DNA from: Isoetes taiwanensis
Lineage: Eukaryota; Streptophyta; Lycopodiopsida; Isoetales; Isoetaceae
DNA length: 64,000 nucleotides
Direction of reading: 5' to 3'
NCBI GenBank assembly: GCA_021234155.1
Contig: JAJEKV010000035.1
Coordinates: 558,001-622,000 of the forward strand
Below the pieces are notes generated by a model. That model was not told the DNA's origin. It saw only the letters and a program-made list of their open reading frames with translations, and did not search any database. This document shows, piece by piece, positions 7,874 to 49,868 of this stretch. The position numbers and the translations under genes were made by a program. How positions within the stretch are numbered: the stretch's first letter is position 1; each line of letters starts with the position of its first letter.

Positions 7874-7941
7874 CTCAATTGTAAGAGAATACTCGCAACA
7901 TCCACAACTCGTGCTCTGAAGACTTCTACCAGGCCTAGCAC
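7874..7941 (-). pseudogene. Captured exon 2 in Helitron H2
   Basis: A 68-nt open segment bounded by an AG acceptor (TTTCAAAG) and a GTAATC donor encodes VLGLVEVFRARVVDVASILL. It follows the exon at 8011-8094 across a short GT-AG intron (7942-8010, about 69 bp) and the frame joins without a stop. The parent gene was not recognised. Confidence 0.45.
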
Positions 7942-8010
7942 CTTTGAAATCAAAATAAGGATGTCAAAATAGTGCTCATCTATAAGTAATAAGAGCTGCA
8001 TATAAAATAC

Positions 8011-8094
8011 CTCAGTCCGCTGATTTGGATTCACATCAAGCTCTAAGAGCATTAGCTCTCTCTCCACCCTCAACTCCTTTGACAAATCATCCAC
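8011..8094 (-). pseudogene. Captured exon 1 in Helitron H2
   Basis: An 84-nt segment, exactly 28 codons, preceded by TTTTTCAG and followed by GTATTTT, encodes a charged helix (begins VDDLSKELRVERELMLLELD). Exact codon length, splice sites on both sides and an open junction with the next exon indicate gene capture rather than chance. The source gene is unknown. Confidence 0.5.
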
Positions 8095-9378
8095 CTGAAA
8101 AAATATCCACATTAAACGTTTCAAATCATTACATTGCATCTCGATCTTGGAAATGCATGTGACGAGGTAGAACCATAAAAGAAATGAAAGATTAGGCATT
8201 ATGAGACCTCTCAACCCACAACCGTTTTGCATTCTAAAAGCAGCAGGGAGTTCTATAGCTGCGGGAGTTGCATGCAAAAGATGATACCTTATTAACAACG
8301 ACAGTGTACCTTCACTTACTTGAGGGGATCGATCTTGGCAGTTAAAGACTTGAGAAGCCCGAATCTTGGCAGTTAAAGACTTGAGAGAGAAGAGAAGCCC
8401 GAATATGAGCTTCTGATCCTGATGCGGGCTCAATGTGGAGATAGGAGAAGGGTCTATCCCATACATGGTAATGCGAGGCACACACCATTACGATTGTAAA
8501 TGTATAGGCATCTCATTCTATTGGGCGCCGGGGAGGACCTTCTTGTATTGTTGAACTCGTTTCTTCCACATCCTAGTATCTGCTTTAAAACCACCACTGC
8601 TTCCACCCGAGAAAAACCGAACCCGATCGGATGGAGTAACCAAGCGTTCTGGCCGAACCCATAATCTGCCATTTGCTAAAAACAAATTTATTTCTTAGCT
8701 CTTCGAAATGCATCCAGCCAAGGCGCCTTTGAACATCTGCTTGAACCTTCGAAAATATCCGCTTGCACCATTTCGTTTTACGAGGAGGCACGTGGCGCGG
8801 GCGGATATCTCGTAACATGTAAATCCAAAACCCTACACATGCCCTAAATGTCGATTAGGGTAAATGTCGATTAGGGTTAGGGTTTGGTTGACGACATACT
8901 TACCCAATAACCTTATAATATAGGATATTAAAATTATCATCGCATTCATATTGAGAGACTAACATCCCATTTATATTTATATTCACATGAATAACTTAAA
9001 CAAATGCATACGAGAAGAACGGGGAAAAATATGCCTCGACGGGGTAGAATAAACTAAACCACGTATGATGGACATGTGGTCGAGATGTAATATAGCCACC
9101 CCTTACCCATTAAAATTTACCTTATGTTCTAATTGGCTACCCGATAAGTTTTTTTTGACGCATTACAAAAATCGAATTGGCCACACCCTGCGCCTGGCTG
9201 AATTTAATAAATATCGAATTGGCTACTAAACGAGTAAAATGTACAAATTCGTGTTTTGAACTGGCCACTACCCTTCAGTCAGGACATGAACGTATCCTAC
9301 TCTGGCGTAGCCAACGATTTCTGAAAAAATATGAATGTGTGGCCAACTGGCCCGCCGGGGCCACTAAAAAATACCCTG

Positions 9379-11820: not shown

Positions 11821-13995
11821 TTGTTTTTTTTTTTTTTTTTTTTTTTTTTGAAGGCAAGGTATTTTTATTTTTATTAATATATGTAATAAATACATTTATT
11901 CATGGCTCTATAGTAGCCAGGTAGCCTAAACATATCAGCACATAAGAAACCCAGGTATGAAAGTAAAAGACAAACACCATTCTAGGAGATCAGCGCAAGC
12001 AAAAATCCCATGACGCATGAAGATGATGCCACCTACTAGACGCCTCCGAAAATACTGATAGACAAAAGTAGAAGCAAAGGAGTGTCTTCCCGCGCGTTAA
12101 CTCGGCCCCAAGGTGCACATCTGCAAAAAGGTACTACAGGGAGACTACTTGCTCACTTCCAATTGTACTAAGAGACAAGTTGTCTCACCATCTTCTCAAG
12201 ATGCTAGTGCCTTCTAGAGGCCTCCCCTAGGGGTGGTCTACTCCTTCCGCGTCTACTTTTAGTCACCAGCTTGAGCTTCATCATCATTGTGCTCCATTAG
12301 CTTAGTGTGAACATTTGGTCCTCCCGATCCAAAAGCCACCTGAATCTTTACCTTACTTTGGCCTCCTTTCACAATACTGTCCCCAACAATCACACCATTC
12401 TTCCAGCTGGGAAGGAAGAGGGCCAACATGGAAAAAACCAAACCCCTTCCAAGATACACATCTGAGGCATACAGAATCTGTCTGATACAACAACGAGCAA
12501 AAACAGTGCAGTCATACCCTCAAACGCCTATCAAGACTCACTAGAACACCATTAGGGATTTTTTGAGATCATAAAAGGGCCTTCTAAGAACTGTGGACTA
12601 AGCTATATGAACTACCAATCAGAAAACAGAACTGGTAATCCAGTCAGCAAAACAGTTATAACTAACTCACTGGATCACATTTTCTAGCATAAGTGTTGAT
12701 AGAAAAGTCCAAATGAGCTCTTGTTTGGTGCAATAGATAGATCTCATTGAGATCTTTCCAACCTTGGGTAGTTTGCATATCTTTTAGCCCCGTAGGATAG
12801 TAAAAAATGGTAAAAACCATATTTTTTAGAGTTTTGACAATCATAAGTGGTTAAAATATATACAAAGCACCTAAGATTGGAAAGATCTCAACGAGATCTA
12901 TCTATTGCACTAAACAAGAGTTCATTTGGACTTTTCTATCAATAGTTATACTAGAAAATGTGATCCAGTGAGTTAGTTATAACAGTTTTGCTGACTGGAC
13001 CCGTCAGGCTCTGATTTCTGATTGGTAGTTCATTTATCTTCATTTGGCTTAGTTGGCATGTTTTGAAGGCCCTTTTTTAATCTCAAAAAAACCCTAATGT
13101 CAAGCTAAAGCAACCCATTTCTTATGAGTCCTCTCAGTACACCTTGAGCGTTCACCAGAAAATTTCATACAAAGGGACTGTACAAGAATCAAGATGCTAA
13201 ATATAGCACAAATCTACTCAACATCAGAAGTCACTGCAAAAGGGTAGTGCTAAAGATGCCGGCTGAATAAGTCTCGAGCACCATTCTCACAATAACCAAC
13301 CTGCTGTTAATAAGAAGTGTGGCATACCCCAAGCTACGACCAGTGCATCAGCAAACATTTGATAGAGGAACCACACATTTGCCTGCTCCCACTAATCCCT
13401 AATGCCTTAAATATCAGCTTAGAAGGAAGGATACTTCTACCATGTTAAAAAACTGAAGAAGACTCATCCCAGTTATTATCAGCATACACCTCCCCACTAT
13501 AGGAACCAAAAACCGAAGTACCGGGGAGCTCCAACCGCAGTGAGTGCAGTAGATTTCCTTTACTGCAGTGAGTGCAGCAGTCACCATTAGCCACAATGCG
13601 TGCAGCCCAACACCTGGTCAAGTAGCCGACAAAAGGAAGAGCATGCCATAAAAACCTTAAGCCTCTTCAACAGCACCAACAAAGCAACAAACAGAACTTC
13701 GTTGATGCGAAATGGCTTCACCTATTGCTGATTTAATCACAGAAAGAAAGGGCGAGAAAGCTTTCTACCTCGACATCCTATGCCAAGGCTCTCTTTGAAA
13801 GCTTAGGCGAACACCAAAGAAAACCTTGCTACAGGACCGAACTGTTCAAGCTTCATCTACCTTCTCTAGATCTGCAAAGAAAACACAGAGGCGTAAACCA
13901 AGAGCGTGCTACTCTTCCGAAGAACACAGTATGAAAACGCTGCTGCTCGGGCGCTTGCCACGCCCTAGCCGCTGATAAACCCTAACATCGACGCT
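11821..13995 (-). mobile_element. Poly(A)-tailed non-coding retroelement, copy 1
   Basis: On the minus strand it begins near 13995 (AGGGTTT...GCGGCTAGGG) and ends with a TTAATAAAAATAAAAATA-type tail, CCTTGCCTTC and a run of about 29 A (T-run 11821-11849). Copy 2 at 18050-19742 shares the 5' start, internal blocks (TTCCAGCTGGGA, CAGTGAGTGCAG, GGGGTGGTC) and the tail. No long coding frame is present. Poly(A) and shared 5' starts suggest LINE-driven copying of a non-coding transcript. A 550-bp MITE (12550-13099) is inserted in this copy only. Confidence 0.65.
12550..13099. mobile_element. 550-bp foldback MITE
   Basis: Two arms of about 215 bp are inverted copies: CATTAGGGATTTTTTGAGAT at the left and its near-complement at the right, continuing through AACTCACTGGATCACATTTT and AGATAGATCTC, with a loop of about 100 bp (12775-12878). 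Copy 2 of the host retroelement lacks this segment, giving an empty site. No target duplication was identified with confidence. The transcript would form a long hairpin and could feed small-RNA production (inference). Confidence 0.75.
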
Positions 13996-17109: not shown

Positions 17110-17152
17110 TACGTATATGTCAGCCTCCTAACATAGTGATGGAAAACCACAA

Positions 17153-17730
17153 TCACACACCACACAACACAAGGTAGTCTCTACACACCACCACATACCA
17201 CACACACACAATATTTGCCGCGGTACACACCACACAACCTGGTGGTGGTGGTGGTGGGGTGTGTGGTGGTGGTGGGGTGGTGGTGGTGGTGGTGGGGTGG
17301 TGGTGGTGGTGGTGGTGGTGGTGTGTGTGGTGGTGGTGGTGGTGTGTGTGTGGTGGTGGGGTTTGGTGGTGGTGGTGGTGGGGTGTGTGGTGGTGGTGGG
17401 GTGTGGTGGTGGTGGAGTGTGGTGTGGGACATGGTGGAGTGTGGTTGCGGGGTGTGGTGGAGTGTGGGGTGTGGTGTGGTTGTGGTGGAGTGTGGTGGTG
17501 GTGGAGTGTGGGGTGTGGTGTGGTTGTGGTGGAGTGTGGTGGTGGTGGATTGTGGTGTGGGACATGGTGGAGTTTGGTGGTGTGGTGTGGTGGTGGTGGA
17601 GTGTGGTGGTGGTGGAGGAGTGTGGTGGTCGTGTGTGGTGTGGGAGTGTGGCGGTGGGAGATGGTAGAGTGTAGTGGTGGGAGATGGTGGGGTGTGGTGT
17701 GGGACATGGTGGATGCCAACAACTCACCAC
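17153..17730. repeat. TGG/TGTGG microsatellite
   Basis: Dense GGTGGT/GTGTGG units (17240-17730) with a CACCACA lead-in (17153-17235). Contains imperfect higher-order units such as GGAGTGTGGTG. All long frames across it (Gly/Val/Trp or His/Pro/Thr) are composition artefacts. Confidence 0.9.
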
Positions 17731-22113: not shown

Positions 22114-22237
22114 GTAGCTGGCTTTCATCTTCATTCAATCTACCAAATCTGTTATATAAAGTTTCTCTATTGCTCTCACTATATGTAACCATTTGCCACT
22201 AAGGTCATCTTTTGGTGACTTCTAAAAACTAGCCGAG

Positions 22238-22856
22238 TTGTTTAATATGGCATTAATCCATGGCTTTCCGGAACAGTGGTGCATGAATCGGATTGTGCCC
22301 ATACATAAAAGTGGAGATAGAAATATGGTAAAAAACTACAGAACTATTATGGTCAGTAGTGTCATGGCAAAGCTTTTTGGTGCTGTGCTTGAGAAGAAGA
22401 TTACCATATGGGCTGAAGCTAGTAGGGTCCGTGCACATGGACAAGCAGGTTTCCGAAAAAAACACTCTACTGTTGATCATCTTTTCACATTGCGTGTAGT
22501 GGCAGAAGGGGCAAAAGGAGCTGGAAATGCTTTATATTGTTGCTTTGTTGATTTTTCTAAAGCTTTTGATAGGGTGTGGAGAAGTAAACTAGGGCATCGA
22601 TTAGCACGTCTAAAGGTGCCTAGGGAATTGCATCAGGGGGTTAACAGACTTTATGAAAAGGTTTTGGTTGAGCTGTCATTTCCCATGGATGGTCCAGAAA
22701 AGGTGGAAAGCAATATAGGAGTGAAGCAAGGGTGCCCGCTCTCACCCACCCTGTTTGGAATATTTATTGATGAATTAGAAGAGTGGATGGAAAGGGAAGG
22801 AGGAGCGAGAGTGCACCTTAATAAATATGTTGTTCAACTTTTGCTTTATGCGAGGC
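22238..22856 (+). pseudogene. LINE-1 reverse transcriptase, first part
   Basis: Contains consecutive RT motifs: NYRTIMVSSVMAKLF, GQAGFRKKHSTVDH, CCFVDFSKAFDRVW (catalytic Asp), VKQGCPLSPTLFG. The frame breaks at 22850-22856 by about one base exactly where the catalytic YADD should be read (TAT GCG then AGGCGATGTG). No polymerase can be made from this copy. Confidence 0.85.
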
Positions 22857-23193
22857 GATGTGGTTCTTCTCTCTAGAACAGAAACAGGGCTTCAGAAAGA
22901 ATTAACTGCATTGGAGATGTTTTGTCGGGAGAAAGGCATGACAGTGAATAAAGAAAAGACAAAAGTCATGATAATAGGAAAGCGGCAGAATATCAGCTTT
23001 TATTTGGAAGGGGAAGCTCTAGAACAGGTGCATCAGTATAAATATTTGGGTGTTGAGTTCACGGATAATTACAAATGGAATGCTGGGGTAAGTAAGAGAA
23101 TATCTGGGGGGATGAGAGCTTTATACAGCATCATGAGCATATGGAAGAACATACATGTCCAGGAATGGTCTTTGAAGAAACTTATGTTTAAAA
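22853..23193 (+). pseudogene. LINE-1 RT, thumb part before Helitron
   Basis: The frame after the YADD frameshift begins DVVLLSRTETGLQKEL and continues VNKEKTKVMI and YKYLGVEFTDN, standard post-YADD LINE motifs. It is open up to the Helitron boundary after the A at 23193 and resumes at 25805. Confidence 0.8.
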
Positions 23194-23429
23194 CTAGTTA
23201 GGGTGCCCAGCGTTGCTGGGCTGATGTTGACCTGTTGATGTCCCTTCCCTAACTCCTATTCCATTGGTTTAAAAACTTGTGTAAAGTTGGAACAATGTCT
23301 TGGTCTACGTCCTCAAGGTTTTCTCAAATGCATCTTGGTGTGAATATCCTCCATGTCAAACATTTTACATTCACCTTGTAAATGGAATTCTATGCAAATT
23401 TGGCATCCCATGATTCAAATCACAAAGCT

Positions 23430-23670
23430 CATCACTTGAAATTAAGAACTCTCGAAGCTTAAAATATATGTCTCAATCATGTTCTACAATGCATAGTGTC
23501 AACAAATCACTTAGTAGAACATTGCATAGTGTCAACAAATCACTTAGCTCATCACTTGAAATTAAGAACACTCAAAGCATAAAATTTATTTCTCAATCAT
23601 GTCCAACAAATCACTTGAAATTAAGAACTCTCAAAGTTTAACTTTTATTTCTCAATTTATGTCCTATAGT
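23430..23670. repeat. Imperfect tandem repeats in H3
   Basis: The phrase TCACTTGAAATTAAGAAC recurs at about 23432, 23552 and 23610 together with TCTCAATCATGT and GTCAACAAATCACTTAG blocks. It is a scrambled tandem array within the Helitron, typical of slippage or filler DNA. Confidence 0.7.
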
Positions 23671-24063
23671 GCACATAGTCAATAGGGAACGAAGTTCCCA
23701 TTCATGTTTATTGTCTTCATGCTTTGTCTTCATATGTTTAAAAGTAAGATAATGCGAACAGACAAAAAATACTATTAACTTATGAGGGTAAAATATTGTG
23801 TAGAGAATGCCATTTTCTTGCAGATCTCATTTCAAATGGACAGTCTTGTTTCACTACTCTATTTGATCACTATTCTTTACTTTTGTTAGTCATCATTGCA
23901 AGTGAACCTTAAATGTGCTCAAACTAAATAATAAATTAAAAACTGAGTGCCTGAGGCAGAAAATCAAAATGGCAAATCTGCATGTTCTTGCATTGATATT
24001 TTGTAAACATCTATCTTTGATTTTTCAAAGCATGATAAAAAATGGATATGTTCACCCAAATCT

Positions 24064-24180
24064 CTTTATCAGTGCCCTCCTCTTTGCACCAAACCTGGGC
24101 TTGCTATATCTCTGGCTAGCGCTCCGCTCAGAAAGAAATTGCCCCCCACTGCTGTTACAGAAGCTGAATTAAGGAAGGAG
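24064..24180 (+). pseudogene. Possible captured exon in H3
   Basis: One plus frame reads KPGLAISLASAPLRKKLPPT followed by AVTEAELRKEGDI and a stop, more protein-like than its surroundings. No family was recognised and the splice borders are unclear, so this is weak. Confidence 0.25.
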
Positions 24181-25534
24181 GGAGACATATAGAATAAGGA
24201 GATGATCCTTCTTACTACACAGAGATAGAACCAAGCCGGAGGAATGTAGACTATCTGCAACATATTCAGATGCATATATTAGTTGCCAAACTTGTCATAT
24301 TAGTTGCCAAGCTTGGCCTTCCACACTCCTGACATCTGCTTTAACCAGATATGCATCTAGCAATGTATTTGCTACAAAAACTTTCAAGTTCATGCTTACT
24401 CTTTGCAACAATTCTAGAAGCGTTCTTTCATAACATAACTTGCAAGAGAACATGCCTTATCACATAAAGTAAGAACAACATGACATCTAGCAAATTAAAA
24501 TTAAACAGATAGTAATCTGTAAATACTTGCATGTGCTTTTTATGAGAGAAATATATATGAACAGGATAGAGCGTATGCAAGATTTACTTTGTCGTTTGTG
24601 GCTATTTGCACCTTATGTTTCAGGTCTCCTTCCTTGAAAAGATGACGTTTATAGTTATGGATATAGTTATGGCAGATTCAAGTTATCCTCACTCATGATG
24701 GAAACAATCACAACCTTTTGTACAACCATTGTGAGTCTGTCTGGGTGGTTTATGTGACCCTCGGTTCATGTATTTTGGCTTGCATGAATAAAAAAACCTT
24801 CAATGGCACACCAAATGCAAACCCAAGCTGTCCAAGGGGATCCTTTCCACCTGACTAAACTAAAAATCGGTTTGGATCATTAGAATCCCAAGATACTTTA
24901 TAATCAAGATGCTCCTACCCAAAAGCTAGTACAAAAATGCTTACCTTAGGAAGCCTATACAGAATAGAGATGGTGAACTTGAGCTCCAAGAAGAGTCTTC
25001 AAACTGCAATCTAGAACCGGGAAGCCCCGTAGCAAATCCTTTAGCATGCTCAACCAAACTCAGAAGTGGCATGGCCTCATGTATTATTGCTCCAGATAGG
25101 ATTATATTAGTAAGAGATAATAACACATATCCTACAGCCAGAGATGAAAGAGCTTGGAGCTTCAGGCTATAAAAGAGAAGCTTCTCCTCCTGCCATAGTC
25201 GTGGAGTTCAGACGAAGGTTAACCCTTTCAGAAATGAGTAATCAACAGATCCACTCCACAAAACAGGCACGGGATCCACATCCTGGGGTAATTCTATTAT
25301 CAGGTGCCACGAAACCAGAAAGTAGGAAGTGAAAGTTCTGGGCACATCAGCCGAACCGCAAGCAGGGGATGCCATCACTGTTGAAGCAACCATTGCCGCC
25401 CAGCAAAAACAAAAAACATAGCCTATGGTCGATGCGCAAAGCTTCCCTTTTTTTCCAGCAACTAATTGTCGGATGGGTCAAATGAACATGGGTCGTTCGA
25501 TCTAGGGCAGATAGTGCTTGGAAGCGGATCGTGA

Positions 25535-25690
25535 TACCGAGCTTTGCAGACCTTTGGCATGCTCTGCCATAGCTGAAGAACCCCCTAAATCGTGTTGCAG
25601 ATCTTGCCCTACGATACCGAGCTTTGCAGACCTTGGCATGCTCCGCCATAGCTGAAGAACTAAATCGTGTTGCAGCTGAAGAACCCCTAA
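25535..25690. repeat. 80-bp tandem duplication in H3
   Basis: GAGCTTTGCAGACC...GGCATGCTC...CATAGCTGAAGAA...TAAATCGTGTTGCAG occurs twice, about 80 bp apart, near the Helitron 5' end. Confidence 0.75.
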
Positions 25691-25804
25691 ATCGTTAGAG
25701 CAAGAAGAAAAGGGCTATCTGGACCGTCCAAATTTTCAATCGAATATTGGCCATCAGATCTAGGGCGTGGTCCATTACTTGCACTAAAACATTATAATAT
25801 AAGA

Positions 25805-26627
25805 TGTTAGTGCAGCCAGTTATTCTATATGGTTGTCCAGTATGGGGACCAGGCTTGTCAAAGAAGAATTGGGCAAATATTGAACAAATACAAAAGAGAT
25901 TTTTAATAGCAGAGCTTGGTGCCAAAGTACAAACACCATATGCGATGCTTCTTGCTGAGGCAGGATCTCTTCCACTAGAGGCAGAAGCACTATGTTTGAC
26001 ACTTGGATATTTAAGACGGATACAAAGTCTAGAAGATGATAGGCTACCTCGACATGCTCTAAGTGAATCAATGAAACACCAAAATGGCTGGTACACACAA
26101 TTGAAGGAATGGTTGGAAAGATGGGCACTAAATATAGATGAGATACCAGCAACTGAATTGGGGATTCGTAGTCTACTTTCAGAAAAGGTGTTGAGCACAA
26201 TATGGATGCCACCTTTGGCACCCAAATTGGGCTTCTATTATAACAAAGTCAACCTCATGATGATGTATGTTGAAGCAGGGACTATCTTAATAGTCGCATG
26301 TAAAGAAAAAACACGTAAGCTCATCTCCCTGCGCCCTCACGCCCCATTCTTTGGAAATCGAAAGTAGACATGACTTGCCAAGGAGTTGAGGTTTTGTCCT
26401 TGTTGCGAGAAGCGGTGGTTGAGGATGAAGAACACGCATTCCTTGAATGCTCCAGGTTTGAAGAAATACGGGAGATCTATGGGATTTATGGGAATTTTTC
26501 TATGCTACTTACATTACCAGCAGCCCACTTAGGAGCTTACCTTCAAGCTTGGTGGAAACATCGTAAGATAATTTTAGAACTAAATGATGTTGCAGATAAT
26601 CTTGAGGCAAATGGCCTCGTTTAGTGT
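25805..26627 (+). pseudogene. LINE-1 C-terminal region
   Basis: Continues the LINE frame after the Helitron: LVQPVILYGCPVWGPGLS (the C-terminal YG-E/PVWGP block of LINE ORF2), then an alpha-helical region to 26367. After a frame break, 26370-26624 reads EDEEHAFLECSRFEEIR, the remains of the Cys/His motif near the end of LINE ORF2. Stop at 26624. Confidence 0.8.
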
Positions 26628-33120: not shown

Positions 33121-33923
33121 CGGGATATCCTTGGGATGACGAGAACGCTTTACATGCAAAGAAGGGACCAGGATATCATATGTCTAGTGGAGACATTAGC
33201 GTGGAGAACCTGAGAGCTAAGAGGCTGCGGGACGAACGGGATACACACTGCTCACATGTTGGAGGAAAAGAACTACAAGGCAGAAGAGGAAGTGCGAGGG
33301 CTAGCTACATTAGGAATAGAAGTGTTTAAAAGCATGTATTCTAGAAACAAACATTAATAAAAGATATATGCTTATGAATATTGTAATGCTTGACTATAGG
33401 AAATTATATTTACTAATAGTGTATTATCCACCTCAATGTGACAAGCTGGAATTACTAGGCATGGGAGAAGTGGTCATGAAACACAGGGATAAGGGACCAT
33501 TGATCATAGTAGGAGATATCAATGCAAGGACGGGGCAAGAACAAGCAGGAGAGCAGGGATAGACAATGAGGATGGACAGTGGAAACAGAGCGAAAGGGAG
33601 GACGAATGGCAAAGGAACACAAGAGATCTAAAATGGAGGTGACAGCGAGAGGAGAAACCCTGATAGAGGTATGTACAGCTACAAATATGGTTATATGCAA
33701 TGGTCTAAGAAGGTGGCAAGCCTCGGGCCAGTTCACAAGCACAAATGCCCACGGGAGCAGTATAGTGGACTATGTGATAGCAAATGAGGAAGCAACAAGG
33801 GAAATTGGAAACATGGAACTAGGAGAATGGCCGTTAGGAGGAAGGGATAGCCACAGACCCATCACGCTCAAATTAAGGGCGGCAAGTGGAAGAGCGAAGA
33901 AAGCAGAGGCAAAGAAGAGGTAA
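33121..33923 (+). pseudogene. LINE-2 apurinic-type endonuclease
   Basis: Pieces in several frames: QDIICLVETLAWRT (the metal-binding Glu region), IVGDINARTGQEQAG (GDxNAR motif), GSSIVDYVIANEEA and GRDSHRPITLKL. The last should read SDH and shows DSH, a possible loss of the catalytic His context. Stops and frame changes separate the pieces (e.g. after 33562). Confidence 0.7.
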
Positions 33924-35200
33924 AAGAACAAAGCTGGTAGTCAAATTGAGAGAAAACAGAGTGGGGGCATTCATAAACACAGTGAAAAAGAAAATAAGAG
34001 ACAAAGAGTGGGGAGAGGAACCAAAGGACAGAGGGAACGACATGAATGATCTCTTGGAAGAAGCAGCAAAATCAGCATTCGGGAGGAAAGAAAGAGGGAA
34101 AAGGGCTATAGCATTTCGAAGATCAGTATGGTTCGACGAGGCATGCGTGGAACAGAGAAAGAAAGCCAAACAGGCAAAAGGAACTGAGGCATACCAAGAA
34201 GAACGGAACAAATATGTGAAGATACTGAAAAGAAAGAAAACTCAGGACCTGAAAACCCACCAATGGGGACTAGCCGAGGATTTGAAAAAATGGCCTAAGA
34301 AATTCTGGAACAATATGAAAAAAGGCTCAAAGACAAAAGCAGGTGCATCAGCAAGAGAGGAAGGGGAAGAAACGGAAACAGAAATAGACTGGACAAGATA
34401 CCTGGAACGGCTATACAAGACAAGGGCTACACCAATCATGGCTCCAGAAGGTAGACACAAACCTTCCTTCTCCAAGGAGGAGGTTACATGGGCACTAAAC
34501 AGGATGGCAAATAACAAAGCACCGGATTTATATGGGCTAACAGCGGAGATGTTGAAGAGTGTACAAACACAGATAGTAGAGATCATAACAGAAATATCCA
34601 ATGAGGTAATTCACTCAGGCCTCCCAGAAAGATGGCAGTTCAATAAGGTAATTCCGCTCCACAAAGGGGGAAACAGAGAAGAACCGAGTAATTATAGGAC
34701 CATCATGGTCAGCTCAGTATTCGCGAAATGGTTCGGGAAAACTCTAGATCAGAAACTGAAGAGTTGGGCAGAAACAGGGAAACTCAGAGCACAAGGCCAG
34801 GCTGGTTTCCGACCGGAGTACTCGACTACGGACCACCTAGTGACTCTAATGATAATGATAGAGCAGGCAAAGGAAAGCAACAAGAAGATCATATGCTGCT
34901 TCGTGGACTTTAAAAAAGCCTTCGACACAGTACCCAGAGATAAGCTCCTACTTAGACTAACAGGACTAAGAGCACCAGAGGGGTTAGTAGGATCAATTGC
35001 AAGGCTATATCAAAAGGTATATGCCAAAATAGAGGGGGAAGGGGAAGCAATAGATTGTGACACAGGAGTAAAGCAAGGATGCCCACTATCACCCACACTC
35101 GTTGGGATATACATAGATGCTCTACAGGAATTTTTCGAGGAGAGAGAGGGAGACAGGGAGGCACCAATGATAGGAAGAACAAAAGCCCCAATAATGCTAT
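33886..35200 (+). pseudogene. LINE-2 reverse transcriptase up to YADD
   Basis: One uninterrupted frame of 438 codons containing NKAPDLYGLTAEMLK, NYRTIMVSSVFAKWFG, GQAGFRPEYSTTDHLV, CCFVDFKKAFDTVP (catalytic Asp) and VKQGCPLSPTLVG. The last LINE codons are ATA ATG CTA T, the first base of the Tyr codon in YADD, where the CACTA element begins. The domain was intact at insertion, so this LINE copy may have been young then. Confidence 0.85.
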
Positions 35201-35219
35201 CACTACCACCCCAAAACTG

Positions 35220-36020
35220 GGTCCACATGTTGTTTTTCAGTGTCTTTTTTGCAAAAAAACAACACCAAAAAACTACGTGTTGTTTTTTGTCCGGATTTGC
35301 TAGAAATGACATGTAGTTTTTACCCAAACTTTTAGACATGTAGTTTTTTTTTTAAAAGTCTACGCGTAGACTTTTGCCAAAATTATCTACACGTAGGAAT
35401 TACATGTGTTTCTACATGTTGTTTTTAAACGTGGATGTAGTTTTCAAGTGTTGCTTTCCTAAAAATAGACATGTGGTTCTTAATAAAACTTGAAGGTCCA
35501 CATGTTTTTTTCTTGTTGTTTTGCAAAAAACAATGCTAAAAACCACATGTGGTTCTTAATAAAACCCGAAGATCCACATGTTGTTTTTAAATTGTTTTGC
35601 AAAGAAAACAACGCTTAAAAAACCGATATAGATTTTTGTCCGATTTTGCTAGAAACTATATGTAATTTTTAGTAAAAGTGTAGTTTTTGTATGCTGCTTT
35701 TAAAAACTAACTTTAGTTTTCAAGTGTTGTTTTCCTCAAAAGTAGACATGTGGTTTTTTCATAAAACTTAAACGGCCTACATGTGGTCTTTGACAAATTA
35801 GTTGTGGTTTTTTGGTGTTGTTTTTCCTCAATATACTATATAGTCAATAGAACATCGACACGTCATGTTTTTAAAGTAGCAATTGTTTTTAGTGTTGTTT
35901 TTGCAAAGAAATGAGAAAACCACATATGGCCTTCCTCTTTATTATTTAAAAAAAGCATTGTATTGTTTAGCACATTGTTTTTATGTTATTAAGGTTGTTT
36001 TGGCCCTTATATGATTCTTG
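35220..36020. repeat. CACTA left subterminal repeats
   Basis: Repeated ACATGTGGTTTTT/ACATGTTGTTTTT/TGTAGTTTTTA words on the plus strand. Reversed counterparts (AAAAACTACACC, AAAACCATACTT) fill 43480-44490. Such arrays are transposase-binding sites in EnSpm/CACTA elements (family knowledge). Confidence 0.8.
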
Positions 36021-37685
36021 TTTTTTAGGCAAGTGTGTTGTTTAAATTTGGTTAAAGCATTTGATTGAAATGCAACTTATAGTGTCCATATTTAATAGAA
36101 TCTTACATTCTTGTTTTATAGCCTTTAATTGAGAATATATTTTATGATTTTAAGAACGAACTTGCTACAAAAATATAAAAACTGCTATTATTTTAAGCAC
36201 CATATAAATAAAGGTGTTATTATGCTATCAGGGAAGAGCATTGATCGAAGCCTAATACATGAATTTTCAGGAAGGTTGCAGTGTCTTTTGTGTGCCACAA
36301 AAATACTCAGATGCACATTTGATTGATGTCATCTGAAGTTTTTAAAAACCTGATGCAAGGAACTTCTTCTTTGCATTTGATCTGATTTGCAACCTCGGAC
36401 TCTTTGGGTTTGATAAGAAACCCCTTGCAGGGGCCATGAGAACTTGGCATCATGGCTTGAAGCAAAAATAACAAGAAGTTTGCTTTGCCTTTGCTAACAC
36501 TATGCTCCTTCTGTAAAAACCGAAGCCCTCTTTGGGTCCGAACTTGAAATCGGAATTAAAAAAAAACAAGGGCAACCTCCATCCCAAGTATCTCACGCCC
36601 TTCATTATAAAATCCACAATGGATTCTCCCGTCCTTCACAAAAAAAATACAAAGGATAAAACACCAAACGTTCTCACATAGATTCAATCATACCCGTAGA
36701 ACCAAAGCAGATAGCACAATCAATCGTGGGTACTGCAGTAAAAGTATAGTGGACAAAATCGCGTGTCTTGCGGTTTGCCCAAGCCCTGAAGTGAACAAAT
36801 CGTATCTTGCAGTTCAGACCAAGTTTGAAACAAATCCCATTTTAAACCTTGCGGGGATATTCAGGCAAAAGCATGTTCAGATTATGAAAATCGAGATTCT
36901 TCTATTTTAAACCTCAAAGGACAAGGAAGAATAAGGAGAGAGGTTCGGATATTTCTATAGTGGTCGGATTCCAGAAAAATAGTAGCACAAACTCCATTTG
37001 TAAGCGAGCCTTTGTGGGATCATGGGCTTCACAACCGGATCAAAAGCAAAGAACAAGGGAAATTTGTGGAAATTTAAGAGAAAGCTGAAGATCAAAAGCT
37101 TAAGGAATGAGATTTTTTCAAGAGAAAGTGGAGATCAAAAGCGGGAAAGAAAAAGCGGGAAAGAAGGGAGATAGAAGCGGCAAAAAAAGCACAATCGAGG
37201 ATCAAATTTTAGCTTTTAATCTAAGCCGATTAAAATTAGGGCCAATAGAATCCAAGGACTTGGATCACAATCTCGGCCAGCTCATCTTGGCCATTGAATG
37301 CAATTCAATTATATCAATGCCTATTTTTAATAATTTCACCATTGACGGCTCTACTCTCCCATGCCCCCATCCCATGATGCTGTTTTTTCCATGGAGTATC
37401 AACAATGACTCCATTCAGACTCGGTTATATTTCAAGATCATATTTTATCCTTAAAACAAATAAATCATGCATTTTTATGACTCTAGTGGTCACACTTCGA
37501 AATCCTCAGTACCTCCATCTATATAATTTGCCATTGTATGTCATACTCGACCAAATTTTGGATAAAAGCTAATGAGTATTTGCGAGATTTCGTCTGGAAA
37601 CTCCAAAATTCATAAAGTTTTTTGGCCAACAAGCAAAAACTCAAACAAGAAATAGAGATTCCAACCAGAAATCAAGAAATCTAAC
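36021..37685. other. CACTA interior, no gene recognised
   Basis: AT-rich. Short frames at 36129-36326 and 37107-37454 show no family motifs. Confidence 0.4.
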
Positions 37686-37689
37686 CCCT

Positions 37690-38095
37690 GTTTCTTATGC
37701 CACGTGTCTACGTGGCATGTTTCAGCCACATGTCATGTTTGAGTCTAGGGCATGCTTGGCCACATGTCACATTTGAGCCTATATGTGGCATGTTTGAGCA
37801 TGTCCTGCTTGAGCCAAAGTGGCTAGCCTAGGGGCATGTTTGAGCCTAGGGGCACAACATTTCAAACCATCAAAAAATGTACGAAATCATATTTCATCAT
37901 TAAAAAAATACATCATCTGAAAAGAGCATTTTATGACCCTAGTGGTTTGAGCCTAGGGGCATTGGGCCTAGGTGGCATGTTTGTGCCTATGTGGCATGTT
38001 TGAGTCATGTGGCACGCGTTTGAGCCAAGGTGGTTCGAGCCTAGGGGCATGCTTAAGCCTAGGGGCATGCTAGATCATAGGGGCACAACATTTCA
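37690..38095. repeat. Minisatellite GCATGTTTGAGCCTAGGG
   Basis: Irregular repetition of CATGTTTGAGCC, CCTAGGGGCATG and GTGGCATG words over about 400 bp. Confidence 0.75.
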
Positions 38096-41000
38096 ACCTT
38101 AAAAAAACCAGCAGTAGAGCAAGCGTGGAGAAGGATCTGAAGTGTCTCGATCGTATTATTTTTTTTAGGGAAAGGGAATGGAAAAGAATAGAAAGTTGAA
38201 GAGGAGAGAAGACACAAAAGGATGCAATGGGGAAGAAGAACCCGTGAAAATGTTCACGTGCTTTCGGGAACAAGTTGGCGTCCAGGAGCAAACGTGTGTA
38301 GAGTTGCATACGTAGAGGTGTAAAGGTTGGTTAGAAGTTTGATCTATACAAGTCGTTAGGATATTTCATAACAAGAATATAAGATTCTCGCATGCCTACA
38401 TTTTGTGAAGGTAAAGATCATTGGTAGAATCCAAATATTTGCTTATAAGCTTCTCCTTTTCAAAGAAGGACTCAATGGTTGTGTTGTGTCATGGGTTTGA
38501 CTTTTAACAACTCCTTATGCACAATGCTTTGCTAAATATTTGTATGTCAAGGATTGTTCATGTTGGGTTTATTTTTTGCTTTGCCAAAACATCTTCGGTA
38601 GTTTTTAGTTTGCAACACGTCTATGCATGTCATGAAAATGATTTGTTGGTAACTATATAAATAAAAACTGGGCATCTAGCAAGTTTAATTCCTTGAACCT
38701 TTATTTGAAGCATGATAGCAAAAGAAAAAGTATATTATAAGAAAAAGCAAAATCCCACCCAATAAATCTCATACAACTTTAGGATGGTTTTTTTTTTTTT
38801 TTTTTTTATGGATAAGGAATTCTATTATCATACCATATATAAAGCAGTGTGTTTTCTGTTCTTAAAAAAATAGGAGGTAATTTTTCTGGGCTGAGCGCAG
38901 CCCTGGCGCTGACACGTATGCACCCATTGCATTTTCAAATTGAAGAAAAGAGGAAAAAAACTAGGGATGCCACGTTTTTGTTCTTATCTGCTTTGAATCA
39001 ATCTCCTCCGTCGAATCTCCTTCTACGCTCTCCCTTCCTCGCCCCATTCCGCGAGATCGGCCGACCGTCGACCAGGTCTCACGGCCCCGCTAGCGTTAGC
39101 CCACGATTATTAGCCGCTGCCGATGACTGTTGATCTGCTGCAACATTGCTTAAATCCCTACTTCAACCTGTTCAAATGACCGGTAATAAAATATTTCGCT
39201 CTTCCCGAACCGTCATGGTTTAGAAAATTTGCGGAAGAACAACAACATAAAGCGTAGATCATGCCAAAACCCTAATCGCGGATTGAAGAATGCAAGGTAG
39301 GCGGGAGAAAGGGGCTTCGTGTTTTCGAGGCGGTTTGGTGATCCATCTCCCAAGAACGCAGAGGATTTTGCCCTATTCCCTGTAGGCAAACGATTCTCTG
39401 ACTTTGATTGAACAAGAACATTAAAATCAAGAAGCGGGTTCATTTTCCTTGCCTATCTCCCGTGACGGAGGGTTTTAAATCGCCGCACCCCTTTCACCAT
39501 TTAAATGGTTCTTTCAGCTGCTCCATCCATCTTCTTAAGTGTTTTGCGTTTGGGGCTTCTTGGGTTTCATTCCTAGGGCTGGCAAATGGGTTTTGTTGAT
39601 CTTTGTTCGGCCGGGATAGCCGCAATGAGAGGAACACGTTTCGAGGTTATGGGGCATGCCCTCTTTCCTTCTTGCGGGATTATTTTCTTTATCTTTGGGG
39701 TGGAGTATAAGCTCTGGTTCAAAGATCCGCCATAGTCGAGTTCTCTAACAGGAAAACGAAGGAAAAAAAAAAAAGCGGATTTTGGAGCTTCTCATTGAAT
39801 GACATCCGTGTTTTAGAAATGTGAGAGCCTATTGCATTTTCGACTTCTATTTTCGACATTTTCACTTTCTATTGATTTTCGCTGGAAGTTCAATGGCTGA
39901 GATGGGATGGAGATATTGTTCGCTTCGAATAACAAACAATGGTGTGTATTATCAGAGCATTTGGCAAACATTTTCCAACTTGCTTCATTTTTACGCTAAC
40001 TATTTTGCGGGGGGTTTTGATCGTCCAATTAACTTTGGTTCCCATGGCCACCGTGTTTTACGCCTATGGCGACTTTTTTTGGCTGGATTCAAACATGACT
40101 AATCTTCTTTCAAGAATGCGGCGTTTAAACTATTCTTTCTATGCCATACGCTTCCAATTTAGGTTTCCAAAAGGCGAACTATAACCATGATGATGTCTTT
40201 TTATGTTTTACATATGGCGACCATGGCGATCATTACATTTGTGGCAATGGCAAATGATGCATGTCTGGTGGAGCAACAGTTTGGATAGGGCGGCAATGGG
40301 TCAACAGGCCATAACAAACTATGGAGCAAAGAAAACTCGGCGGAAATTGCTTTTGCCTTTCTCATTTGGAACCTTTCCTTGAACCGCCTTTCGCCTATTT
40401 TTGTTGATCATAGAACTGGAGTAAACAATGTGAGTGGTGATATAATCTTTGTTACTAAGCTTTTTACATGCAAACGCCTGATACCGCTCTCTTTTTGCAA
40501 TGACATGGTGTATTCTATATGATAGATTCTTTGCCCGCTTCCCTCATCCCATTTAAGTTTTCGATCACATATAGTCTTTTTTAACTTGAGCAATGGATAA
40601 ATGAATAGTTTTATCTTTGCATCGAATTTTGTGCTGGTAGTTCCTTTTTTCGTCTGGCAAATGGTGGTTGGTGTATATATGTTGTTGCTATGTATATGCT
40701 CTTGCCTTTCTCCATTCAGACAATAGATTCTAGCTTTTATTCATGGATAATATCAAGGATTCTCATTGTGCATGGCGTATCACTGATATCCAATATGTTG
40801 GAATTGTATAGCCTGTTAGCCAGACCATTGATATCTGAGCTCCTCAGATAGTTGAACATTACAGAAAATGATGAGTATATCCTAATAGTAGCGTCTGCAA
40901 ATGGGTTTGAAGGCATGGCATCTGCTTAGTTCTTGCCTGTTCATACCATTACTTGCCCACATTACACTCTCTTATTGTTTCGTTTTTAGATTCACAACAA

Positions 41001-41210
41001 AGCTCACAAGATTAACAGCAACCTCGACATCCATCCTACGCACTGGAACATGAGGTGAGAAAGTGCAGGTCCAACCCCTGCAGGTTCTAGCACGTAGATA
41101 CGGGATGATGATGAGACACTCCTTTTTTCTAATATCTCAGTGAAGATAAATGCTCTTTTGATTTAATACAAAACATCTTTTGTAACAAGTGCACCTAGAT
41201 GCCTACAAAA
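38096..41210. other. CACTA interior, unassigned
   Basis: Contains a 20-T run (about 38787-38807), possibly a reversed retroelement tail. An exon-like segment near 40990-41051 (IHNKAHKINSNLDIHPTHWN between AG and GTGAG) is too weak to name. No other supported gene. Confidence 0.35.
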
Positions 41211-41218
41211 GTGGATAC

Positions 41219-41395
41219 TTTACTTTGGTAGTCGTATATGTTGGAGCAATTTGACATGTAGCGTGGTTCATAGGTCTTATTAGCAAAACTCATATATCCT
41301 AAATTCTTACTTTAGTGGTCCTATATGTTGGACAAATTTGACATGTAGCATGGTTCATAGGTCTTATTTAGCGAAACTCATACATCCTAATTTCT
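41219..41395. repeat. Tandem duplication, period about 88 bp
   Basis: TTACTTTGGTAGTCGTATATG...CATGGTTCATAGGTCTTATT...ATCCTAA occurs twice with about 10 percent difference. Confidence 0.8.
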
Positions 41396-41426
41396 CAAGG
41401 CTCATAGTCCACCTTCTCAGCTCGTG

Positions 41427-41538
41427 CATCTTTTCATAAGCAAATTAAGATTCAATGTGCATGCAAGCATCCTTCATATTCACATCTTTTCAAAAGCAAA
41501 TTAAGATTCAATGTGCATGCAAGCATCCTTCATATTCA
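41427..41538. repeat. Tandem duplication, period 56 bp
   Basis: CATCTTTTCA-AAGCAAATTAAGATTCAATGTGCATGCAAG... occurs twice, nearly identical, so a recent event. Confidence 0.85.
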
Positions 41539-41756
41539 AATTGAAAAATTATGTACTTACGACTTACGGTTTTAGCATGCATACACGAGTTGGGGAAAGC
41601 GTTAGCGGCGATAGGATAGGCCGCGATAAGTTTCTTGTATTGAGTAAAAATTATATGACTATATAGCAAGTTGACACCTTCCTGTACAGGTTTGAAGAGG
41701 GGGTAGCTACAGAGTCAACCTTCTAACTTATACGTTGTATTGACGATCCATTGCCA

Positions 41757-42600
41757 CTAGAGTTTGATGAACGTCCCCCAAACTATTTCCTTCTGGGTAG
41801 TCTCACATTCATGTATACATTTGTATTTTCTTACAAGAACAACCTCCACAGCCACAGCATTGTTATTGTCTTCAACATTGTCAATTTCCTCATCATTGCA
41901 TGCATCTTTAAGATTTGTTTCCAAGCTTTGTGCATTCTTATCCACCTTGTCATCCAAATCGCCATATCATTTACATTTGTATTTTGGGCTCTACTATTTT
42001 GTACTTAATCTCCACTTTGCTTATAGACCTTCACCAGATAATTCTTCTTCTACAAAGTCACATCTACGCTCACTATGATGTTTCTTCTTTACGGATTGTA
42101 CATTACGTAACCTTTCGAATGCTCATCATATCCTACCAAATAGGTTATGATGCATCCGTCATCTAATTTTAATCTATTTTCCTTGGGAATATGAGTATAT
42201 CGGTAGTCGTATGCTTTATAATTTTCAAAGTTAGGCATACTTCGACCATAAGAATTCACAGGCACATACCTTCCGGACATTTGGTTGGCAAAGCATTTTG
42301 CACTAACTGTGATCTTTTTTGCTTCTTCCCAAAGGAAGTTTGGCAAACCTGCATGCTTTGCTTTTTGTGTTCAGATGGATTGGAAGAAAGAAGATGCTAA
42401 CTTTGCAAGGAAAATCTGAGAATCTATATGAGAGCTTGCCTTCATCAAAGCAGTTTGAGTTTGATCCCGGTTTAAGCTTCCTTCCATTAGCATATTAGAG
42501 TATGTATAACAATTGGAGTATTTCCATAACCCATTTAAACACCAGTAGAACCCCATCGCACCGCCACACGAAAGAGAAATTGTGGCAGGCGATCCGGATC
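41757..42600 (-). pseudogene. Ty1/copia integrase-end fragment
   Basis: The minus frame 42346-42089 reads NFLWEEAKKI, then YTHIPKENRLKLDDG and YLVGYDEHSKGYVMYNP: the conserved LPxxFWxEA, HIPxExRxKLDD and GYxxxSKGYxxYNP blocks at the end of copia integrase. Both sides of it on the minus strand are eroded (42556-42371; 41957-41757 acidic). It is a fragment of a copia element nested in the CACTA. Confidence 0.7.
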
Positions 42601-43050
42601 AAATAAGCCAACTCTTATTTTGTGTCAAGTCAACTTTGTTCTATTTGAGGCCCGTTGAAGAAATCAATCGGGGCCTCTTTTTAGTGGACGTTGTGTTTGA
42701 GTTATGCCGCTTTACGCTCATTGTATGTACATGCTCCCGTGTTGTATACTTGATGAAGCCATGGTATTGTGGGCGTTCCTATTTAATGGGGTCAATTTGA
42801 CCCCATGTCGACTCAATACGATTGCTTCAAATCTTGCCGACCAACATATTCTCTGAAGGTGCCCCCATCGACGGGCCAATAAAGGACAATACTAGCTAGG
42901 GATGGAAATTAATTCCCCCCCCTCCCTCAGGAACTAAATCAAGCTTAATTAAATAATACATCATTAGGCGGTCGAGGAGCTTTGTGAAACATCAAATTTC
43001 ATCTAAAATATACTATTCAATCAAATGTTATAACTAAAATTGTAATAGCG
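42601..43050. other. No gene recognised
   Basis: Spacer between the copia fragment and the second CACTA end; nothing supported. Confidence 0.4.
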
Positions 43051-43054
43051 CCTT

Positions 43055-43449
43055 AGAAAAGCACCATCGACGATTAGTCCGATGCAATATCCGACGAATA
43101 GTCCGACGAAAAATCGATGATATATCGGCGTTATATCCGGACGCATTTTCGGACGATTATTACGACGCAAATTCGGCAATAAATTCGGACGGTTGAACTG
43201 GACGAAATTTCGACGTATAACTTCGACAACCGGCCCGACGGCGCAAATTCGACGCGATATTCGGACGCAAATTTCACGCTTAACACGATAAAGGCCGGCG
43301 ATTTATGTGGACGATATGTCCGATGTAGTATCGTCGGGAAAAACATCAAAATAGTAATCGTCAAGACGTTCGTCACCGTATGTCGGGCAAAAATATCTCT
43401 AGGACGGTCGACGATTTTTCCGACAAAAAATGCTCATTCTCTTGTAGTG
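43055..43449. mobile_element. Second CACTA end (EnSpm type), nested
   Basis: The right boundary is ...TTCTCTTGTAGTG (43437-43449), that is CACTACAAGAGAA reversed, the classic plant EnSpm terminus. To its left about 380 bp of CGACG/TCGG/GTCCGACGA words form its subterminal array. The opposite end was not found within the outer element, so it is truncated or its partner end has diverged. Confidence 0.65.
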
Positions 43450-43479
43450 GTTGGATCTAACCATTGAAGTTATTTTTCA

Positions 43480-44490
43480 TTTAATGTAAAACAATACAAT
43501 ACATTCCCAAAGTTGAGCAACAAACAATATTCCGAGGTGGTGGTGCTTTGCTTAAGAAATAGCCTCAAAAACCATACTTCCTTAAAAAATAGGCTGTAAA
43601 AACTACGCCCACTTGAGAAAACCACACTACGTAAAAAATAGCCACTTAAAAACTACACCTACTTAAAACCACACCTCAAAAACCATACTTACTTTAAAAA
43701 TAGCTATGTAAAAACTATACCTAGTTGTATAAACCACACCAAAAAATCATATTTCCTTAAAAATAGCTTCTTAAACACTACATCTAGTTATAAACTACAC
43801 CACTTGTAAAACCATACTTCATTAAAAAACAAACCACTTAAAAACTACACCCGCTTATAAACCACACTTCAAAAAAAAAAAACCATACTTCTTTAAAAAA
43901 ATAGCTATTTAAAAACTACACCCACTTATAAAGCGACACCTCAAAAACAACACCTCGATTAAAAAAAATCATACCACCAGGAAAACCATACTTCCTTAAA
44001 AAGCGACCACTTAAAAACTACAACCCGCTTATAAACCACACTTCAAAAACCATACTTCTAAAAAAAACAGCTATTTAAAAACTACACCCACTTATAAACG
44101 ACACCTCAAAAACAACAACTCGATTAAAAAAAATCATACCACTTCCAAAACTATACTTCCTTAAAAAACAACCACTTAAAACTATACCTCCTTATAAACC
44201 ACACTTCAAAAAACTATACTTCCATAAAAAACGACCACTTAAAAACTACACCTAGTTATAAACTACACCTCAAAAAACAACACCTTCTTAAAAACAACAC
44301 CCCCTCAAAAAAACAAGCAACACTTCTTTTAAAAAAACGACACCTCAAAAAAAGACTACACCTTCAAAAAAAAAAAACTATAGCTCCATAAAAAAAACTA
44401 CACCGTCTCCTTAATAAACCACACCTCCACATAACCACATGTAGATTTTTTGGAACAACGACATGTGGTCTTTTTGTTACTGTTGTTTTT
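43480..44490. repeat. CACTA right subterminal repeats
   Basis: About 1 kb of AAAAACTACACC, AAACCATACTTCCTTAAAAA and AACCACACCTC words, many at 30-60 bp spacing, mirroring the left end. Likely transposase-binding array. Confidence 0.85.
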
Positions 44491-44520
44491 AGGTGTGGTC
44501 CCAGAATTGGGGTGGTAGTG

Positions 44521-45215
44521 TATATGCGGACGACTTAGGTATGATGGCGACCAAAGCCAAAGGAATGCACAGAATGCTAGGGATACTAGAAGAGTTTTGT
44601 TTGGAGACAGGATTGACAGTCAACCTGGACAAAACAAAAATAGTGACCTTCGGCACAAAGACAAAGCACAAGCCCTTTAAATACAAGGGACAAGAACTGG
44701 AGGAAACCACATGATACAGGTATCTGGGATATGACACACATGGCGGGGGGAAGTGGTCAAAAGGGGCAGACAACAGATTCTAGGCAGCGATAGGCAATTA
44801 TTACATCATGATGAATTACTGTAATAACAGCAGGATCACCAATTGGGAAATCAAAACATACCTATTTAGCACATTAGTAGCATCGACACAGCTATACGGA
44901 TGTGAAACATGGGGACCAGGCCTATCAGAGAAGAAATGGGAAAAACAGGAAGGAATACTGAGGCAATGGCATGGACAGGAATTCCAGGTGAAAGCAAGTA
45001 CATCATTAGCAACAATCATATATGAAACAGAGGAAAAGCCAATGGAGGTAAGAGCATGGGAAAGAACAATCAGGTATCTAATGAAGGACAACAGCTATGG
45101 GAAAGAGGACAAACTGTCATCATTGGCAATAGAGGAGTCAGCAAAACAACACATAGTAAAAAGCAAGGGATGGTTTAACGACGTGGCGAGGTGGACGGCA
45201 AGCATGGGGATGTAA
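44521..45215 (+). pseudogene. LINE-2 RT continuation after CACTA
   Basis: Starts with the rest of the catalytic motif (Y)ADDLGMMATKAKGMHRMLG, then VNLDKTKIVTFGTK. A stop follows at 44714 and the frame resumes: YRYLGYDTHGGGKWSKGADN, STQLYGCETWGPGLSEKKWE. The same order of blocks as in LINE-1 shows related LINEs. Confidence 0.8.
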
Positions 45216-45905: not shown

Positions 45906-45983
45906 GTCCGAGGGCCTCACGGCCTGAGGGACGTTAATGTATATTCTATTCTATTCTATTCTATTCTATTCTATTCTATTCTA
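45906..45983 (+). other. LINE-2 3' stem-loop and ATTCT tail
   Basis: GTCC-G-AGGGCCTCACGGCCTGAGGGAC forms a hairpin (45906-45932), followed by GTTAATGTAT and about eight ATTCT units. Same arrangement as LINE-1 (26651-26719) but with a different tail unit. Confidence 0.75.
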
Positions 45984-46419
45984 ACTCGTTAGATCGTTTA
46001 ATTAGTTGGGCACCTTAACATAGAAAAATTACCCTAGGAACCCGTAGATAGTATGATTGATGGCCATATACGTGAGAAATGGGCTAAGTAGGAAGATAAA
46101 ATCCAAGCCAACAAGGTGAGACCATGTTGGATTTTTGACAGAGTGAGGTCCCTTATTTCTGGAGGCTATAACTTTCTCTAAGAAACTCGGATTGAGACGA
46201 TTTTTTTCCTTGCATACGGAACACCCTCATTAGTCTAGGACACCCTCTGGACAGACCGATGGCACCAACAGTTGGCCGCAAAAAACAAAATCGGCATTGA
46301 AGGGAAAATAGGGGTCTTAAATTTGATTTGGGGACGCTAAAAACCCCTCAACACTGAAAAATACGCACCATATAAAAATTTTCTGCCATATTTTTTTCCG
46401 CCATCTTAAAAAAATCTCA
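45984..46419. other. No gene recognised
   Basis: Flank of LINE-2; no supported feature. Confidence 0.4.
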
Positions 46420-49275: not shown

Positions 49276-49868
49276 CCCGGTCGGTACCATCGCAGCTATG
49301 GACCTTAACGAAGAGATTCTTAGCTACAACCAGGTAAAACTAATGCTTTGTTAGTGTTCAGGTTTTTGTTATGGATTTTGTTCGCAGTGCATTGGATTCT
49401 TGATGAATGAAGAGCATGAAATTGTGAAGAATTTCTTGCTCGAAGCTGTCAGACTTCAAGCTTGGGAAAAACGGATTGATAATTTTACTCTGGGGGAAGG
49501 TGCCATGCTCGCAAGTTTGAAGGTGTTGCATGATCCGGTAAGGAAGACTGATACTCTGATGGCTAACTTTGGAGAAAGTGCTATTGGAAGAGTTGCCCCT
49601 GTTGTTTCAGGATTTTGGTGGATCAGTTTTTGCAGGGAATTCATGGTTACCTCAATGAAATTCAAGCTCTATTCTACATGTGTTTACGAGCTGCCGAGCT
49701 TGAAGCAGGGGGCAAAGCATTCATGGACAAAAAATGATAGAAGACTCTATGCATTAAGCTATCATATGCGAACTTATTTCTGGTTAGACCATCAGCAGCT
49801 CAACAACATTTATCGTTACAAGACGGAAGAGTAGTCTCACACTGCAATAAACAAGTTCAACGTCTTAT
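49273..49868 (+). pseudogene. Alkaline/neutral invertase (GH100) remnant
   Basis: Pieces match plant neutral invertase in order: PVGTIAAMDLNEEILSYNQV, then VFVMDFV (after a 28-base GT...AG-like leftover that looks like a shrunken intron), LMNEEHEIVKNFLLEA, WEKRIDNFTLGEGAMLASLK, LHDPVRKTDTLMANFGESAI, GRVAPVVSGFWWI, IQALFYMCLRAAEL (other frame), LYALSYHMRTYFWLDHQQLN, NIYRYKTEE, stop, SHTAINKFNV. At least three frame changes, internal deletions (after GFWWI) and a stop; the N- and C-terminal thirds are missing. The family cleaves sucrose in cytosol or organelles; this copy cannot. Confidence 0.85.

Follow-up and report, generated by a model that had tools for sequence, protein, structure and literature searches.

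The 64,000-nucleotide stretch of Isoetes taiwanensis DNA analysed here (contig JAJEKV010000035.1, positions 558,001 to 622,000 of the forward strand; called the window below, position 1 being its first letter) contains a long interspersed nuclear element (LINE) whose YADD codons are split, at exact coordinates, by a CACTA-type element. This element, at 35201-44520, is very probably (at roughly 0.94 by our own estimate) a non-autonomous CACTA (EnSpm) transposon of a distinct family. The assignment to CACTA is based on its terminal inverted repeats (TIRs), a 3-bp target site duplication (TSD), subterminal repeats that mostly point inward, ends that recur across the genome, and a genome rich in Transposase_21.

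Element borders and the empty LINE site

CACTACCACCCC opens at 35201 and its reverse complement closes at 44520, and the 27-bp terminal repeats agree at 24 of 27 positions. Once the element and one TAT are excised, the LINE frame reads ...APIMLYADDLGMMA... / ...TKAPIMLYADDLGMMATKAKG..., giving I-M-L-Y-A-D-D-L-G. In the window, 2,688 pairs of CACT[AG] and [CT]AGTG lie 0.3-20 kb apart, 55 of them with equal 3-bp flanks, and 35201-44520 is the only one of these 55 with an end match above 16/27. A near-palindrome pair at 12668-12970 scores higher (25/27), but without equal 3-bp flanks. When single bases were exchanged within 500-bp blocks of the window in 100 rounds of shuffling, the best pair reached 19/27 with equal flanks and 21/27 without the flank condition.

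Three bases further out, a 4-bp repeat (ATGC) offers an alternative border, but one that would break the LINE frame; the TAT border is further supported because uninterrupted LINE copies run across the joined site. A query of 197 bases, made of both LINE flanks joined, was searched in the same assembly (1.66 Gb, 1110 contigs), and all 40 scored LINE copies (of 807 candidates) crossed the joint with 93-99% identity over 191-199 bases, three of them at 99%. Consequently, this LINE has many similar copies in the genome, and the element inserted cleanly into one of them. The initial annotation had proposed that a CACTA-like element with a TIR at both ends and a TAT duplication interrupts the YADD codons, and that its removal restores the frame exactly; ends, TSD, frame and empty-site copies all agree with this. 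Two in-frame stops, at 44712 and 44781, are a further reason why this LINE copy either was not intact or has ceased to be so. A microsatellite tail of TATTC type, read from the translation, apparently closes the LINE at about 45940-46000 (+).

Recurrence of the ends and family structure

The 12-mer CACTACCACCCC occurs 331 + 325 times in the genome versus 96 + 48 for its reversed control, and the 21-mer CACTACCACCCCAANNCTGGG, at one mismatch or fewer, is present at 307 + 324 (631) places versus 0 + 0 for the control. Pairs of listed places within 25 kb of each other (n = 24) span 5.3-22 kb, with a median of 9.9 kb. From the listed places, 23 other end pairs were picked by hand, of which 14 were fetched whole (the relatives below), one further pair (C918) was fetched and 8 were read at their flanks alone. 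An exact 3-bp duplication was found in 13 of the 14 relatives (not in C561), not in C918, and in 5 of the 8 flank-read pairs, amounting to 18 of 23 pairs overall and 18 of the 20 pairs that lie no more than 20 kb apart. The ends therefore recur elsewhere as element borders, which had been put forward with the initial annotation as a way of checking it. Outside this genome, the family end had no match in viral contigs, and a pattern of the end with 19 fixed bases had 2 matches in prokaryote genome contigs (257 Gb) against 1.9 expected by our own arithmetic, both results being uninformative.

The two ends of the family differ, with CCCCAAAAC at one and CCCCAATTC at the other (AA and TT types). 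The arrangement of one AA and one TT end was observed in 14 of 15 elements (the relatives and the window's element) and in 7 of the 8 flank-read pairs, the right end of C528 and C405 being of a third form. As this asymmetry is family-wide, the end mismatches of the window's element are mainly inherited; two of the three are AA against TT differences, so that decay was rejected as their cause.

Behind these ends, all 14 relatives have the right 0.5-1.3 kb in common (2.9 kb in the case of C528), and 12 of them also the left 190-350 bp (longer in C528), while the middles are unrelated in many relatives despite the common ends. Middles are shared within groups, namely C907a/C376/C618, C907b/C920, C928/C404/C561, and the window's element with C528. 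Identity to this last, the nearest relative (L029), is 92% for positions 1-3628 of the element and 89% for positions 6435-9320, the 2.8 kb between being missing from C528. C404 and C561 (L030 and L031) form a 2.8-kb subfamily in which the family ends and the right subterminal region are kept and the left region is unrelated.

Subterminal repeats

Both ends of the window's element are lined with copies of RTGTNGTTT, a motif picked after inspection of the sequence. Inward copies number 12 over the leftmost 760 bp, where shuffling gave a mean of 0.26 and a maximum of 3, and 20 over the rightmost 980 bp, where it gave a mean of 0.71 and a maximum of 4; the left side also has 3 that point outward, the right side none. 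On both strands together, the 7.6-kb middle holds one copy and the other 54.7 kb of the window six. Among the relatives, inward copies number 6-15 on the left in 12 of 14 and 12-27 on the right in all 14, and outward copies 0-5 on the left and 0-1 on the right. The subterminal repeats of ACATGTGGTTTTT type noted in the initial annotation are thus real, but the motif is wider (RTGTNGTTT) and ACATGTGGTTTTT is its left-hand variant.

Subterminal repeats that are specific to a family and asymmetric between its borders have been described as supposed binding sites of TNPA-like proteins (PMC2613891). CACTA elements are described as having TIRs of about 10-28 bp ending in CACTA...TAGTG and subterminal repeats of about 10-20 bp, direct and inverted (PMC7139988). 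In the window's element, the TIR, the 3-bp duplication and the subterminal repeats are all found, with a core of RTGTNGTTT that is 9 bp long and longer repeat units also present.

Cargo in the middle

Among the 97 open frames of at least 45 amino acids that touch the window's element, 86 were scanned against Pfam, the 11 that cross a border being omitted. One convincing match was obtained, to the SH3-like domain of Copia, together with seven weak ones (0.04-0.09), and no transposase was found among these 86 frames. With frames in which one residue exceeds 25% set aside, the 14 relatives contain 164 frames of at least 85 amino acids; 150 of these were scanned, the 14 others being minus-strand frames of L024. 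They matched Copia, RVT_1, PsbQ (6e-8), AMP-binding (9.5e-8) and zf-RVT (4.5e-4), with four further weak matches and again no transposase. A frame of C907b (L022:1386-1763, minus strand) reading QGYGMTEAGPV...SGSCGTVIRN presumably is a piece of a 4-coumarate:CoA ligase gene, and the AMP-binding match is taken to be this frame by its ligase-like motif; the position of the PsbQ fragment was not located by the Pfam scans. Pieces of host genes therefore appear to be carried within the family, although none could be demonstrated in the window copy.

The longest frame of the relatives (414 amino acids, in C112, L032) was considered as a transposase and dropped, since it adjoins frames with LINE motifs; with these neighbours, and with RVT_1 and zf-RVT matches among the scanned frames, it is read as a nested LINE.

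A fossil end inside the right border

The initial annotation had pointed out that the TIR differs from the common plant CACTACAAG type, which fits a distinct family, and ends of CACTACAAG type are also present in the same genome. One of them lies within the element itself, where an end reading CACTACAAGAGAATGAGCATTTTTTGTCGG stops abruptly at 43449 against GTTGGATCTAAC, 1.07 kb inside the right border, and is accompanied by 15 CGTC[CG] motifs in 470 bases. The identical junction is present in 8 of the 15 members (with small changes in C913) and, genome-wide, at 70 + 77 (147) places versus 0 for the control. It is missing in seven members (C907a, C907b, C920, C376, C125, C618 and C112), and in C618, C907a, C125 and C376 other sequence runs up to the same point. 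Since one exact junction is shared in this way, the CACTACAAG-type piece would have joined the 3' region of the family, most simply once and before a large subfamily multiplied. Its reading as a private nested insertion of the window copy was dropped on account of the same recurrence. A left end matching the fossil was found in none of the 15 members at up to two mismatches.

Search for a transposase-bearing partner

Transposase_21 gave 2311 candidates in the genome, of which 150 were scored, with 167 matches. In thirty 3.6-kb loci around the best of these matches, CACTACCACCCC was not found at one mismatch or fewer. The longest six-frame stretch of each of the 30 loci, compared by tblastn with 16 elements at E 1e-3, also gave no match, while the 30 loci do find one another in the same comparison. 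The 22-kb pair C918 was considered as a candidate autonomous copy and rejected, as it holds a Copia element and is without a 3-bp duplication. Another CACTACAAGAGG end, in L053, lies near a Transposase_21 frame; it was dropped as the border of a transposase-bearing element because it points away from that frame. Of the separate CACTA lineage suggested in the initial annotation, the distinct family, defined by its ends, stands, whereas no autonomous relative was found among the listed ends and Transposase_21 matches.

Proposed mechanism and alternative explanations

If 35201-44520 is a non-autonomous CACTA element, its CACTACCACCCC ends would be bound by a CACTA transposase produced from another locus of the genome, and the RTGTNGTTT repeats at both ends by a TNPA-like protein. 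The element would then have moved by cut-and-paste into the YADD codons of the LINE, TAT being copied, with a middle carried as passive cargo (a Copia piece, the fossil end of another CACTA element and unidentified DNA).

Several observations weigh against this reading. An exact 3-bp duplication is wanting in 5 of the 23 pairs (C561, C918, C405, C941 and C917). In C404 and C561 the unrelated left subterminal region contains no RTGTNGTTT, and C112 holds 15 further copies in the region counted as its middle. In addition, no transposase-bearing copy with CACTACCACCCC ends was found when 225 listed end places (of about 631) were compared with 150 listed Transposase_21 matches (150 of the 2311 candidates being scored), none of which lie closer than 32 kb to each other. 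About 0.8 such pairs would be expected within 20 kb by chance, so that the lack of close pairs is not in itself striking and, both lists being partial, the absence of an autonomous copy from the genome does not follow.

That the borders belong to two different elements or to an assembly error, 35201-44520 not being one unit, is hardly credible. In its favour, some genome end pairs lack a duplication, and three of them, 22-46 kb apart (C917, C918 and C941), may be ends of different copies; at the window's site, however, the exact duplication, the exact frame and the empty-site LINE copies speak for a single unit, as does C528, which matches inward from both borders at the identities given above. 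That the ends resemble CACTA by coincidence, and that the element should be placed in a different TIR superfamily whose duplications are 3 bp long (PIF/Harbinger) or variable, is very improbable. Subterminal repeats are known in other superfamilies too, and no transposase is linked to the ends among the listed ends and Transposase_21 matches. PIF/Harbinger targets TAA/TTA, and among the 19 elements with a duplication (the window's included), 4 show one of these two; the duplications are nevertheless diverse (TAT, ACC, TTA, AGA, AAT, TAG, ATT, CAT, TTT, ATA, TAA, GAA, GAG, GTA), the first bases of the ends are CACTA, and Transposase_21 is abundant in the genome.

The fossil raises a further alternative, in which a CACTACAAG-type transposase mobilises the family and the fossil end still aids recognition. 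The exact junction shared by 8 of 15 members and 147 places is consistent with it, and no transposase was found with CACTACCACCCC ends among the listed places and the 16 elements read. The seven members without the fossil, however, all have exact 3-bp duplications, implying that the fossil is not needed; the fixed junction is explained by a shared ancestor, a matching left end is missing, and the sole CACTACAAG-type end near a transposase (L053) points away from it, no transposase being tied to CACTACAAG ends. This alternative is accordingly considered unlikely. With 147 junctions versus about 315 end pairs' worth of ends, the fossil is present in roughly half of the copies. On a wider proposal, the several hundred copies would lack any autonomous member of their family in this genome and would depend for movement on a CACTACAAG-type transposase acting in trans; the fossil end would have been carried along since before the copies multiplied, and the two families together would make up one compound CACTA lineage. 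This proposal is likewise doubtful, if a shade less so.

Relation to known CACTA elements

LsC1 of lettuce (PMC8195511) resembles the present element in being a non-autonomous CACTA element with 28-nt imperfect TIRs, a 3-bp duplication, no transposase gene and a large family found by its ends. It differs in the ends themselves (its search query being CACTACTNGAAA, versus CACTACCACCCC and the AA/TT asymmetry of the Isoetes family), and excision has been observed for LsC1. Tgmt*/Tgm of soybean (PMC2613891) shares CACTA ends, a 3-bp duplication (ATA) and subterminal motifs that are specific to a subfamily and asymmetric between the borders; unlike the present element, Tgmt* is 20.5 kb long and codes for a tnp2 transposase as well as a presumed binding protein, and its motif has TTGGCAG versus RTGTNGTTT. 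The Tpn1 family of Ipomoea nil (cited in PMC8195511) is alike, by description, in having common subterminal regions with differing captured host gene fragments. Chenopodium CACTA elements (PMC8978399) also carry captured gene fragments and tandem arrays inside, but are described with transposase-associated domains, none of which were found in the 16 copies here. Non-autonomous families with common ends and exchanged middles have thus already been described (PMC8195511, PMC8978399).

A full-text literature search for CACTACCACC gave no transposon paper by title; searches for CACTACC with CACTA terms gave none, and those for CACTACCGG with CACTA gave unrelated papers only. As end sequences often stand only in figures, these negatives are weak evidence of novelty, and a weak test of the 'little-described' status suggested in the initial annotation; the family, of a well-known kind, may at most tentatively be called new, itself not having been found in the literature searched.

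A clean insertion, with flanks that reach 99% identity to LINE copies lacking the element, is here combined with a large family having fixed asymmetric ends, one inward motif and exchanged middles, which makes the family a good test set for the cis needs of CACTA elements and for the pick-up of cargo. The general understanding of CACTA elements is unchanged by it, the fossil end and the missing partner being the points of note.

Feature coordinates and other features of the window

Table 1. Coordinates, in the window, of the CACTA-type element, its parts and the interrupted LINE.
Feature	Position	Strand	Basis or remark
Non-autonomous CACTA (EnSpm) element (very probable), 9,320 bp	35201..44520	.	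TIR, TSD, frame restoration, both ends recurrent; 5' (AA-type) end left
TSD TAT, left copy	35198..35200	+	Flank reading and empty-site LINE copies
TSD TAT, right copy	44521..44523	+	Flank reading
Left TIR, AA type (CACTACCACCCCAAAACTGGGTCCACA)	35201..35227	+	Pairing and genome recurrence
Right TIR, TT type (CACTACCACCCCAATTCTGGGACCACA)	44494..44520	-	Pairing and genome recurrence
Left subterminal region	35201..35960	+	12 inward and 3 outward RTGTNGTTT; first 190-350 bp or more in 12/14 relatives
Right subterminal region	43540..44520	-	20 inward RTGTNGTTT in diverged tandem units; in 14/14 relatives
2.8-kb segment missing from C528 (L029)	38829..41634	.	Insertion here or deletion there; TAT at joint
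Copia retrotransposon fragment (SH3-like domain, integrase region)	42089..42370	-	Pfam SH3_retrovirus 6.3e-9
Fossil right end of CACTACAAG-type CACTA element (CACTACAAGAGAATGAGCATTTTTTGTCGG...)	43030..43449	-	Repeated CGTC[CG]; inner border approximate
LINE reverse transcriptase, 5' part, interrupted	33877..35200	+	Pfam RVT_1 6.2e-17 for frame 33877-35316
Same LINE, downstream part, starting ...ADDLGMMATKAKG	44524..45215	+	In-frame stops at 44712 and 44781

Neither Rfam nor tRNA scans produced a match in the window. A second LINE at 22226-26367 (+) is also interrupted, its frames halting near 23185 and restarting near 25798; about 2.6 kb of other sequence splits it, and no clear target duplication was found there. 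The near-palindrome at 12639-12999 is 361 bp in length with long arms, and resembles a miniature inverted-repeat transposable element or a foldback element. Long simple repeats of CCACCA/GTGGTG type, open in several frames, occupy 5700-6100 and 17150-17700, and a fragment of an alkaline/neutral invertase gene is present at 49355-49834 (+; Glyco_hydro_100, 6e-35).

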